Assembly: GCA_036271555.1 (NCBI GenBank)
Contig: DATBAK010000019.1
Span: forward strand, 124,001 to 188,000
Origin: Acidimicrobiia bacterium
Lineage (GTDB): Bacteria; Actinomycetota; Acidimicrobiia; IMCC26256; PALSA-610
Length of the DNA: 64,000 nt
Direction of reading: 5' to 3'
Shown here: positions 56,598 through 60,435 of the stretch, piece after piece
How positions within the stretch are numbered: the first letter of the stretch is position 1
How the letters are laid out: every line of letters begins with the position of its first letter
Program-made: the position numbers and the translations under genes
Notes under the pieces: model-generated
The model's database searches: none
The model's input: the letters and a program-made list of their open reading frames with translations, nothing else
Told to the model about the DNA's origin: nothing

Positions 56598-56611
56598 CGA
56601 ACAGGCGTTCG
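56598..56611. promoter_or_regulatory. LexA-type SOS box
   Basis: CGAACAGGCGTTCG is a perfect CGAAC-N4-GTTCG palindrome, the actinobacterial LexA consensus, including its purine/pyrimidine centre. A -10-like TACAGT lies at 56622-56627, and the cupin-like gene starts at 56638. LexA bound here would cover the -35. Confidence 0.7.
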
Positions 56612-56637
56612 GTCGCAGCGGTACAGTCGACCCGGTA

Positions 56638-57219
56638 ATGACCGTGCGAGGAGATCGCGTGACGCTCATGCTCGACCAGACGCTGGTGCGCAACCTCCTG
56701 GAGCATCCCGCCGACTACCCGTGGCGGATGCAGAACGTCGGCCTGCTCTCGCTGCGACTCGACGAGCGGCGCGAGTACCGACTCCACGTCTGGGATCCGG
56801 AGGGCTGCGTGGGCGACCCGCCGGTGCACGACCACCCCTTCGACTTCGCGTCGACCGTGATCGCGGGTGAGCTCGTGAACACGCGCTACGGCGAGGATCC
56901 GAATGGCGTCGAGTACACGCGCCATCGGTACCGGACCGGCTCGGAAAGCGATCGCCGCACCGATTCGGTGCGGCTGACGGGGAGTGAGACCGTCCTCTCG
57001 TCGGGTGATCACTACCGGCAACGATCCGTCGAGCTGCACAGCAGCCGCCAGACTCCGGGCACGGTGACGCTCCTGCAGTTCGGGCCGGTCGAAGCCGGCG
57101 AGCTCACCGTGTGTCTCGCGCCGGGCGCGCCGTGGGTGGCGGTTGGCGCCCGGCCCGCGACCGCGGCCGAGGTGAAGCGCATCACCGGCGCGGCGTTGGA
57201 TCAGCTCTCGGTCGCGTAG
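56638..57219 (+). CDS. cupin-like protein, possible SOS-regulated gene
   Basis: A 193-residue protein with a small beta-barrel outline. It contains a cupin-style metal site GDPPVHDHPFDFASTVIAGEL (H64 and H66) and a later QRSVELHSSR. A cysteine dioxygenase or related metalloenzyme fold is plausible; the reaction is unknown. ATG 56638 follows TACAGT by ten bases and a LexA-type box by 26. It converges with a HAD phosphatase three bases away, and the radA-disA repair genes lie beyond. Confidence 0.7.
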   Translation: MTVRGDRVTLMLDQTLVRNLLEHPADYPWRMQNVGLLSLRLDERREYRLHVWDPEGCVGDPPVHDHPFDFASTVIAGELVNTRYGEDPNGVEYTRHRYRTGSESDRRTDSVRLTGSETVLSSGDHYRQRSVELHSSRQTPGTVTLLQFGPVEAGELTVCLAPGAPWVAVGARPATAAEVKRITGAALDQLSVA

Positions 57220-57222
57220 CGC

Positions 57223-57834
57223 TCAGCGCGAGGGCGCGGTCTCGAGCCAGGCCGGGAAGTCGCGCAACGAGTCGAGCACGATGTCGGCACCCGCCGACTT
57301 GAGCTGCGCCTGCGAGTGCGGTCCCGACGCGACACCGACCGTCGTGCACCCCGCCGCGCGTCCGCTCTCGATGTCGGTCGTCGTGTCGCCCACGTAGATC
57401 GTCGCCGCGTACTCACGCAACGCGTCCACCTTGCCGTCGCCGTAGCGCAGGCCGAGCACGACGTCGACGTCGATCCCGACGTGCTCGATGCACGCGCGCG
57501 CGTTGCGGTCCTCCTTCGCGGTGACAACGAGCGTGTGGCCACCGCGCGCGTGGACGGCGGCGATCGCATCGCGCGCGCCGGGGAGCAGCTCCGTACCGGG
57601 CACGCCGACCTCGCGATAGAACGCGCGGTACCGCGCCGCGAGATCGTCGACGCGATCGGCCGGAACCCACGACGCCAGCTCGATCTCGAGCAGCGGACCG
57701 AGCCGACCGAGCACCGTGTCGACGTCGATCGGCGCGCCCGTCTCCGCGATGAGCGCGTCGAACGCGGCCCGCACGCCGGGACGCGGGTCGACGAGCGTCA
57801 GGTCGAGATCGAACCCCACCACCAGCGGCGCCAT
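57223..57834 (-). CDS. HAD-family hydrolase (phosphoglycolate phosphatase-like)
   Basis: A 203-residue HAD phosphatase. Motif I is VVGFDLDLTLVDPRPG (nucleophile Asp and its partner), motif II is VVTAKEDRN, and motif IV is YVGDTTTDIESGRAAG (metal Asp). A cap domain lies between I and II. Substrate could be phosphoglycolate or another small phosphate ester. ATG 57834 starts the fold. The frame runs on upstream into the radA promoter, but those residues are not HAD-like. It diverges from radA. Confidence 0.88.
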   Translation of the reverse strand: MAPLVVGFDLDLTLVDPRPGVRAAFDALIAETGAPIDVDTVLGRLGPLLEIELASWVPADRVDDLAARYRAFYREVGVPGTELLPGARDAIAAVHARGGHTLVVTAKEDRNARACIEHVGIDVDVVLGLRYGDGKVDALREYAATIYVGDTTTDIESGRAAGCTTVGVASGPHSQAQLKSAGADIVLDSLRDFPAWLETAPSR

Positions 57835-57891
57835 GGCGGCCCATGCTCGTCGACGGCAGCGCGATCCGCGTTCACTGTCCGAGGGTCCGAT

Positions 57892-57897
57892 TATGTT
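57892..57897 (+). promoter_or_regulatory. leaderless -10 element (TATGTT) of radA
   Basis: TATGTT is six bases before ATG 57904, with no ribosome site. Confidence 0.5.
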
Positions 57898-57903
57898 GGC
57901 CGC

Positions 57904-59280
57904 ATGACCCGAACACGCGTTCGCCACCGTTGTGAAGCCTGCGGCGCGGAGCAGCCGAAGTGGATGGGCCGCTGCCCCGACTGTGGCGAGTGGGGATCGG
58001 TGATCGAGCAGCTGCCGCCGGTCGGCGAGGGCCGCCCGGCTTCGCTGCCCAGGATCCCGAAGCCGCTCGCCGACGTCGATCCGGCGGGCGCGCCGGTGCG
58101 GGCGACGGCTGTCGGTGAGCTCGACCGGGTGCTCGGCGGCGGGCTGGTCGCGGGCTCGGTCACGCTGCTCGCGGGCGAGCCCGGCATCGGCAAGTCGACG
58201 TTGTTGCTGCAGGCGCTCGCAGAGCTCGCGCGCGGCGGCGCGCGTACGTTGCTCGTCAGCGCGGAGGAGTCGGTCGAGCAGGTGCGCCGGCGCGCCGACC
58301 GCCTCGGCGTGCCGCCGCCGGGACTACTCATCGTCGCGGAGACGTCGCTGCCGATCGTCCTGGCGATGGCGGAGACGCTCGCGCCCGACGTCGTCGCGAT
58401 CGACTCCATCCAGACCGTGCACGACCCCGACGGGCCCGGCGCGCCGGGATCGGTCACGCAGGTGCGCGACGGCGCGCAACGGCTCGTGCGATACGCAAAG
58501 GAGAGCGGCGTCGCGACGGTGCTCGTCGGGCACGTCACGAAAGACGGCGCGATCGCCGGACCGCGCGTCCTCGAGCACATCGTCGACACGGTGCTCTCGT
58601 TCGAGGGTGATCGCGACCACGGGGTGCGGACGCTGCGCGCGTTGAAGCACCGCTTCGGCCCGACCGACGAGCTCGGCGTGTTCGAGATGTCGAACGACGG
58701 GTTGCACGGCGTGCCCGACGCGAGCTCGTTGCTGCTCACCGAGCGGCGCGGCGACGCGTCCGGCTCGATCGTCGCGGCCGCGATCGACGGCGCCCGCCCG
58801 CTGCTCGTGGAGGTGCAGGCGCTGGTGACGCGCACGAACGCGCCGCTGCCGCGCCGCGCCGCGCAGGCGCTCGACGGTGGCCGGCTGTCGCTGCTCATCG
58901 CGGTGCTGCAGGAGCGCGCGGGCGTCGGGCTGGGTGGGTTCGACGTCTATGCGAACGTCGCGGGCGGGGTGCGGGTCGCCGAGCCCGGCCTCGACCTCGC
59001 GATCGCGATGGCGGTCGCCGGCGCCCACTCCGACCGGCGCCTACCCGCCGACACGGTGGTCGTCGGCGAGGTCGGTCTCGGTGGTGAGCTGCGTCAGGTA
59101 CCGCAGATCGCGCGCCGCCTCGCCGAGGCCGCCCGGCTCGGGTTTCGGCGTGCGGTCGTGCCCCCGTCGACCCCCGAAGTGCCCGGCATCCGGCTCCATC
59201 GGGTCGCCGACGTGGGCCGGGCGTTGCTGCTCCTCGAGGTCCCCGACGACGGCCTCGGGGCGCGGTCCGGGCAGGAGTGA
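57904..59280 (+). CDS. radA: DNA repair protein RadA
   Basis: A 458-residue RecA-like helicase that branch-migrates recombination intermediates. The zinc finger has C10, C13, C24 and C27 (HRCEACG, then GRCPDCG), Walker A is GEPGIGKST (91-99), and the RadA-specific motif usually written KNRFG reads KHRFG (248-252). The C-terminal Lon-like domain (about 300-458) is complete. ATG 57904 has TATGTT six bases upstream. It sits beside disA, which RadA often accompanies and which it controls in Bacillus. Confidence 0.94.
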   Translation: MTRTRVRHRCEACGAEQPKWMGRCPDCGEWGSVIEQLPPVGEGRPASLPRIPKPLADVDPAGAPVRATAVGELDRVLGGGLVAGSVTLLAGEPGIGKSTLLLQALAELARGGARTLLVSAEESVEQVRRRADRLGVPPPGLLIVAETSLPIVLAMAETLAPDVVAIDSIQTVHDPDGPGAPGSVTQVRDGAQRLVRYAKESGVATVLVGHVTKDGAIAGPRVLEHIVDTVLSFEGDRDHGVRTLRALKHRFGPTDELGVFEMSNDGLHGVPDASSLLLTERRGDASGSIVAAAIDGARPLLVEVQALVTRTNAPLPRRAAQALDGGRLSLLIAVLQERAGVGLGGFDVYANVAGGVRVAEPGLDLAIAMAVAGAHSDRRLPADTVVVGEVGLGGELRQVPQIARRLAEAARLGFRRAVVPPSTPEVPGIRLHRVADVGRALLLLEVPDDGLGARSGQE

Positions 59281-59364
59281 ACGATGCCGATCCTTGGTAC
59301 CGTACGGCCGCCCGTCCCGGCGCGCTCCACGAGGGGCGAGCGCGCGCCCCCCACGGAGGTGACG

Positions 59365-60435
59365 TTGGCTCAGTTCCGATCGGACGCCTTGCACGTCGCC
59401 CTGCGCTTGGTCGCGCCGGGAACGCCGCTGCGGGAGGGGATCGACCGGATCCTGCAGGCCAACATGGGCGCGCTCGTCATCATCGGCGACGGTCCCGAGG
59501 TGCTCGCCATCTGCTCGGGCGGCTTCCTCCTGGACGCCGAGTTCACACCCCAGCGGCTCTCGGAGCTGGCGAAGATGGACGGCGCGGTGATCCTCGCGGC
59601 CGACGGGTCGCGGGTGGCGCGGGCCAACGTCCATCTCGTCCCTGACCCCGACATCCCGACGTCGGAGACGGGCACGCGGCACCGTACGGCCGAGCGGGTC
59701 GCGCGCCAGATCGACGTGCCCGTGATCGCGATCAGCGAGGAGATGTCGGTCGTCACGATCCGGCAGCGGAACGCGAAGAAGACGCTCGAGCCGATCCCGC
59801 GGGTGCTGGCGCGCGCCGACCAGGCACTGCAGATCCTCGGTCGCTACAAGGCGCGGCTCGACGGGCTCACGGCCGCGCTCTCGGCGCTCGAGGTCGAGGA
59901 CCTCGTGACCGTGCGCGACGTCACCGAGACCGTGCAGCGCGCCGAGATGGTGCGCCGCATCGCCGACGAGATCGAGGGCTACGTCATCGAGCTCGGTGCG
60001 GACGGCCGGCTCGTGCAGCTGCAGCTCGAGGAGCTCGTCGTCGGCGTACAGAGCGACCTGCGGCTGGTGTGTCGCGACTACGTCGTGCCCCGCGACAGCG
60101 AGGACCTCGACGCCGTGCTCGCGCGGCTCGCCGAGGTCGACGACGACGACCTCATCGACGGGCGCGCGGTCACCGGTGTCTTCAACCTGCCGCGCGAGAT
60201 CGACCTCGACGCGTCGATCCAGCCCCGCGGCTATCGCCTCCTGGCCAAGATCCCGCGGCTGCCCGATGCGATCGTCGATCACATCATCGAGCGCTTCTCG
60301 AACCTCTCGAAGATGATGCGGGCGAGCATCGCCGACCTGGTCGAGGTCGAAGGCGTCGGCGAGGCGCGGGCCCGCGCCATCAAGGACGGCCTGTCGCGCA
60401 TCGCCGAGAGCTCCATCCTGGAGCGCTACGCCTGA
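59365..60435 (+). CDS. disA: DNA integrity scanning protein, diadenylate cyclase
   Basis: A 356-residue c-di-AMP synthase that scans DNA for damage. The cyclase domain has MDGAVIL and GTRHRTAERVA, the DGA and RHR motifs, then a coiled linker and a C-terminal helix-hairpin-helix domain (VEVEGVGEARARAIKDGL). I choose TTG 59365: a near-perfect Shine-Dalgarno, GGAGGT, is at 59355-59360, and the resulting length matches the family. ATG 59284 would add 27 residues with no ribosome site. TACCGT at 59298-59303 may be its own -10. Confidence 0.93.
   Translation: MAQFRSDALHVALRLVAPGTPLREGIDRILQANMGALVIIGDGPEVLAICSGGFLLDAEFTPQRLSELAKMDGAVILAADGSRVARANVHLVPDPDIPTSETGTRHRTAERVARQIDVPVIAISEEMSVVTIRQRNAKKTLEPIPRVLARADQALQILGRYKARLDGLTAALSALEVEDLVTVRDVTETVQRAEMVRRIADEIEGYVIELGADGRLVQLQLEELVVGVQSDLRLVCRDYVVPRDSEDLDAVLARLAEVDDDDLIDGRAVTGVFNLPREIDLDASIQPRGYRLLAKIPRLPDAIVDHIIERFSNLSKMMRASIADLVEVEGVGEARARAIKDGLSRIAESSILERYA

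Follow-up and report, generated by a model that had tools for sequence, protein, structure and literature searches.

The question raised by this locus is which of its genes, if any, answer to the SOS response. A sequence-only reading of the window, the whole 64,000-nucleotide stretch that was analysed, had singled out a LexA-type box and a TACAGT hexamer in front of a cupin-like gene, named radA and disA as nearby genes, and suggested that the cupin may be an undescribed DNA-damage-response protein. Box and hexamer are indeed present ahead of an open frame ending at 57219, and both neighbouring genes are where that reading placed them, with a minus-strand gene of HAD type before radA (Table 1). 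Overlooked was an exact box of radA's own; radA and disA had been named as neighbours only. Our results make it quite probable that the locus carries two predicted LexA operators, one at radA and one at the cupin gene, and of these SOS features that of radA has the stronger support.

Table 1. Features of the locus, in window coordinates; regulatory elements are predicted.
Feature	Position	Strand	Basis or remark
Putative LexA box CGAACAGGCGTTCG	56598-56611		upstream of cupin gene; pattern match and matrix score
-10-like TACAGT	56622-56627	+	from sequence; inferred
Shine-Dalgarno-like GAGGAG	56648-56653	+	before GTG 56659; from sequence
Cupin-fold protein gene, 186 aa	56659-57219	+	alignments, AlphaFold2, cupin-fold matches
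HAD-family phosphatase gene	57223-57834	-	convergent to cupin, divergent from radA; family searches
PafBC/RecA-NDp-like radA promoter TGTCCGAG-N8-TATGTT	57876-57897	+	spacing as in relatives
radA (sms)	57904-59280	+	TIGR00416, E 1.2e-148
Putative LexA box CGAACACGCGTTCG	57910-57923		exact; radA codons 3-7; 20.69 bits
disA homologue (diadenylate cyclase, c-di-AMP)	59284-60435	+	named from sequence and place

The relevant regulators are encoded in the genome (4.68 Mb in 104 contigs, 95.8% complete). It contains a single LexA gene (TIGR00498, 236.9 bits; exact box 63 bp before the start), a RecA gene, and the PafB/PafC pair, recognised as adjacent WYL genes of which the second has a PF19187 HTH_PafC domain. 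A search of the accessible literature found no report on LexA regulation in this class.

The motif CGAAC-N4-GTTCG occurs 22 times in the genome. Markov models of order 1-3, built on the 64,000-nt window, predict 16-50 occurrences, so that the background-rate check proposed by the sequence-only reading yields no excess; neither existence nor abundance of a box is evidence by itself, and the exact-box count was rejected as an argument. The 22 sites divide into 14 at or near starts of SOS-type genes, six inside unrelated genes, and those of cupin and radA. The SOS-type genes are lexA, recA, dnaE2, imuA', dinB (Y-family polymerase IV), ruvC, uvrA, an AlkB-like oxygenase, a DEDD exonuclease/GIY-YIG protein and five genes of 13E12/DUF222 type; their families were confirmed save for four of the 13E12-type genes, named by resemblance, and some of the six intragenic sites were placed by open frames alone. 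Each of the 13E12/DUF222-like genes (L002, L006, L008, L018 and L020) has the exact box at its start, the Pfam DUF222 assignment being limited to L008, and the box at L011 overlaps the start of the gene for the AlkB-like 2OG-Fe(II) oxygenase. A weight matrix trained on the 14 sites, which had been chosen because of their exact arms and the genes they belong to, assigns them 17.1-33.1 bits in leave-one-out scoring and the six intragenic sites 10.2-16.1 bits, as computed on the retrieved sites and the window.

The cupin box matches CGAAC-N4-GTTCG exactly and lacks the outer T...A of tCGAAC-N4-GNNCGa, the motif of Streptomyces venezuelae (PMC9380542). It covers the region where the -35 element of the cupin promoter would be expected, and its matrix score (19.16 bits) falls inside the range of the SOS-type sites. 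CGAAC and GTTCG are common words in this GC-rich genome, and the box could be a chance match, the functional one being that of radA only. The unremarkable genome-wide count, the six exact boxes in unrelated genes and the absence of the box from every cupin homologue examined all agree with such an origin. Coincidence is nevertheless harder to reconcile with an intergenic position immediately before a -10-like hexamer, with a score exceeding those of all six intragenic sites and with a difference of just one base from the lexA operator; moreover, about 1.4 intragenic boxes per Mb would translate into roughly 0.5 chance boxes over all promoters of the genome. We regard a chance match as unlikely, and from promoter position and matrix score a LexA operator ahead of the cupin gene is likely. 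LexA bound over the -35 region of the TACAGT promoter would repress the gene.

Conservation in relatives, another check that the sequence-only reading had proposed, gives a different answer. Five cupin homologues are available from other genomes (G016, G026, L027, L028 and G735), none of them from the same genus, and an exact LexA box is found at none. The cupin box is thus a lineage-specific gain at most; probably functional, it was seen in this genome only and to that extent appears restricted to its lineage. The claim of LexA control consequently has support from promoter position and matrix score, while the chance-level box count and the five homologues without a box speak partly against it. 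Given the same count and the same homologues, a damage-response role of the cupin can be envisaged only if the gene was recruited within this lineage: a three-histidine cupin would then be made after DNA damage here and nowhere else. Such an operator, if confirmed, would add one more enzyme to the damage response of one lineage. The search of the accessible literature returned no report connecting a cupin gene to an SOS box.

The loci of the cupin homologues without a LexA box have an element of their own in common, similar to AATnACAGTGnTGT, near the promoter and imperfect in some of them. Upstream of the homologues L025, L026/L028, L027 and L195 it is partly palindromic and may be the operator of another regulator. 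L026 and L028 look identical wherever read and probably represent one organism, so that the independent homologues may number four instead of five.

The encoded protein is a cupin, as had been supposed. Its open frame extends up to ATG 56638, and GTG 56659 is the likely start, being preceded by GAGGAG and being the point from which the homologues align; one homologue likewise has GAGGAG ahead of its GTG. In an alignment of 29 sequences H57, H59 and H127 are invariant. The AlphaFold2 model (mean pLDDT 93.9) displays a double-stranded beta-barrel with a histidine metal site and has cupin matches up to Z 12.5, and Foldseek against the PDB retrieves general cupin matches only. Sequence searches of Pfam, NCBIfam and PDB assign the protein to no family; a search of PHROG gave a weak match to phrog_4786 (cysteine dioxygenase, E 1.1e-4), with Pfam again without match. 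Cysteine-dioxygenase-like and other cupins (phrog_4786, YubC 3eqe, Pbunavirus ORF011-like proteins) share with it the barrel and the HxH motif with a distal histidine. Sequence identity to the viral members is low, about 23-36%, and there is no curated cellular family. Fold and histidines suggest that the protein is probably a small metal-dependent enzyme.

Distribution of the gene is sparse. Within the order, three of 58 genomes carry a homologue, and one further clear homologue occurs in the class; scanning GTDB contigs with the single protein gave no match, and scanning them with the alignment gave two loci. Distant relatives are numerous in phages and viral contigs. Among them, ORF011 of Pseudomonas phage F8 (L034), L035 and members from many viral contigs are annotated as hypothetical. 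The scattered occurrence within the order and the many viral relatives fit a mobile, phage-related gene of ordinary metabolism that gained an SOS promoter when it arrived and plays no part in DNA repair, and the neighbouring genes read in other genomes include none for repair. To this explanation we give an even chance: nothing speaks directly against it, and it is compatible with a real LexA operator as well.

The box in radA was compared over 124 kb comprising 30 radA loci, one from this genome and 29 from relatives. In 17 of the loci an exact box starts six bases beyond the A of the start codon of radA, and within the 124 kb there is one other exact box, the cupin's own. Seven more genomes with a radA box were confirmed by inspection of both the zinc ribbon and the translated gene start, bringing the total, this genome included, to 24. 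These belong to families f1, f8, f11, f16 and f17; f5 has the box with one mismatch. Conservation is not universal, the box being absent from other families of the order such as f2, f4, f6, f9, f12 and f14. A search of 396 genomes of the phylum used a specific pattern that combines the box with the radA zinc ribbon and overlooks radA genes whose N-terminus is longer; beyond the order it matched only places in two genomes, and these are unverified. Boxes at class level that begin with ATGACACGAAC, seen in two genomes (L166 and L167), were rejected as radA boxes, as lexA-like reading frames follow them. Hence radA, unlike the cupin gene, combines a LexA box at its promoter with conservation in orthologues.

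The radA box lies wholly within coding sequence, where it encodes R-T-x-V-R, and the N-terminal peptide is conserved among these RadA proteins. Both facts would suit an explanation by protein sequence, according to which a conserved peptide M-x-R-T-x-V-R, together with codon bias in the start region, yields the box as a by-product and there is no operator. Choice of codons is the main argument to the contrary. Arg3 is CGA and Val6 is GTT in all 17 radA genes analysed, although elsewhere in these genes CGA makes up about 9% of arginine codons and GTT about 10% of valine codons; since the genomes were picked by presence of the box, these figures are descriptive. The remaining bases around the box vary, relatives without the box have different N-termini, and the spacing between box and -10 element is constant. 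No radA with the R-T-x-V-R peptide and without the box was found among the 30 loci. The by-product explanation is thereby left very improbable, and a LexA operator, conserved in the order and controlling radA, is in our judgement highly probable from the sequence comparisons. DNA-binding and coding constraints would then meet in a putative operator within the first codons of the gene.

The promoter to which this operator would belong was examined in the 24 box-bearing genomes. All of them have a TANNNT element ending 6-7 nt ahead of the radA ATG, and 22 have GTC at the fixed -26 spacing of PafBC/RecA-NDp promoters, for which the consensus is tTGTCRgtg-8nt-TannnT (PMC5656591). Core and spacing of this consensus are thus retained in 22 of 24 cases; the -26 element in the window is TGTCC, with C at the fifth base where the consensus has R. 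With the -10 element so near, the radA mRNA is probably leaderless, starting at or near ATG 57904, and the box would overlap its transcription start. On account of the box, the -10 and -26 spacing and the encoded PafBC pair, radA appears to be leaderless, PafBC-activated and LexA-repressed. We propose that LexA, sitting on the palindrome that spans the transcription start and first codons, would repress a promoter of PafBC type, and that upon DNA damage RecA-stimulated cleavage of LexA would free this promoter while PafBC activates it. Induction of radA would follow, and probably that of disA downstream. A single radA promoter would in this manner read both actinobacterial damage pathways.

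A homologue of disA follows radA in 16 of the 17 box-bearing loci tested; in the window its conserved part and likely start lie near GTG 59359. The SOS switch may possibly control disA behind radA through co-transcription. In Mycobacterium smegmatis, disA and radA form an operon, and c-di-AMP inhibits the RecA-stimulated cleavage of LexA (PMC11653572). If disA is co-transcribed with radA here as well, a feedback loop would follow from that inhibition: LexA would repress radA-disA in this order, damage would raise c-di-AMP, and this built-in negative feedback would end the SOS response. Such a scheme, taken together with a separate recruitment of the phage-related cupin to the SOS regulon, is tentative and on present evidence rather doubtful. 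The radA-disA case nonetheless suggests a connection of the SOS response with c-di-AMP signalling.

Parts of this arrangement have counterparts in other actinobacteria, in which LexA control of radA (PMC9960051) and dual PafBC/LexA promoters (PMC8223512) are already known. The LexA regulon of S. venezuelae (PMC9380542) uses the same arms, CGAAC-N4-G..CG, with boxes at dnaE2 and other DNA repair genes; the main text of that study mentions neither radA nor a cupin, whereas here the boxes lie in the coding sequence of radA and upstream of the cupin gene. In Corynebacterium glutamicum, radA is reported to be affected by LexA (Jochmann et al. 2009, cited in PMC9960051) and disA is in an operon with radA (PMC9960051). 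Both systems therefore have radA under LexA, predicted in our case, and disA adjoining; the effect of LexA in C. glutamicum, as cited in PMC9960051, is reported for radA and not for disA. The mycobacterial PafBC regulon includes radA, and some mycobacterial genes bear RecA-NDp and SOS box together (PMC5656591, PMC8223512, PMC8922275). The -26/-10 motif and spacing of mycobacterial RecA-NDp promoters are those seen at radA here. Unlike the mycobacterial cases, the radA genes described here appear to combine both inputs in one short leaderless promoter, in which a PafBC element is directly followed by a putative LexA operator in the first codons.
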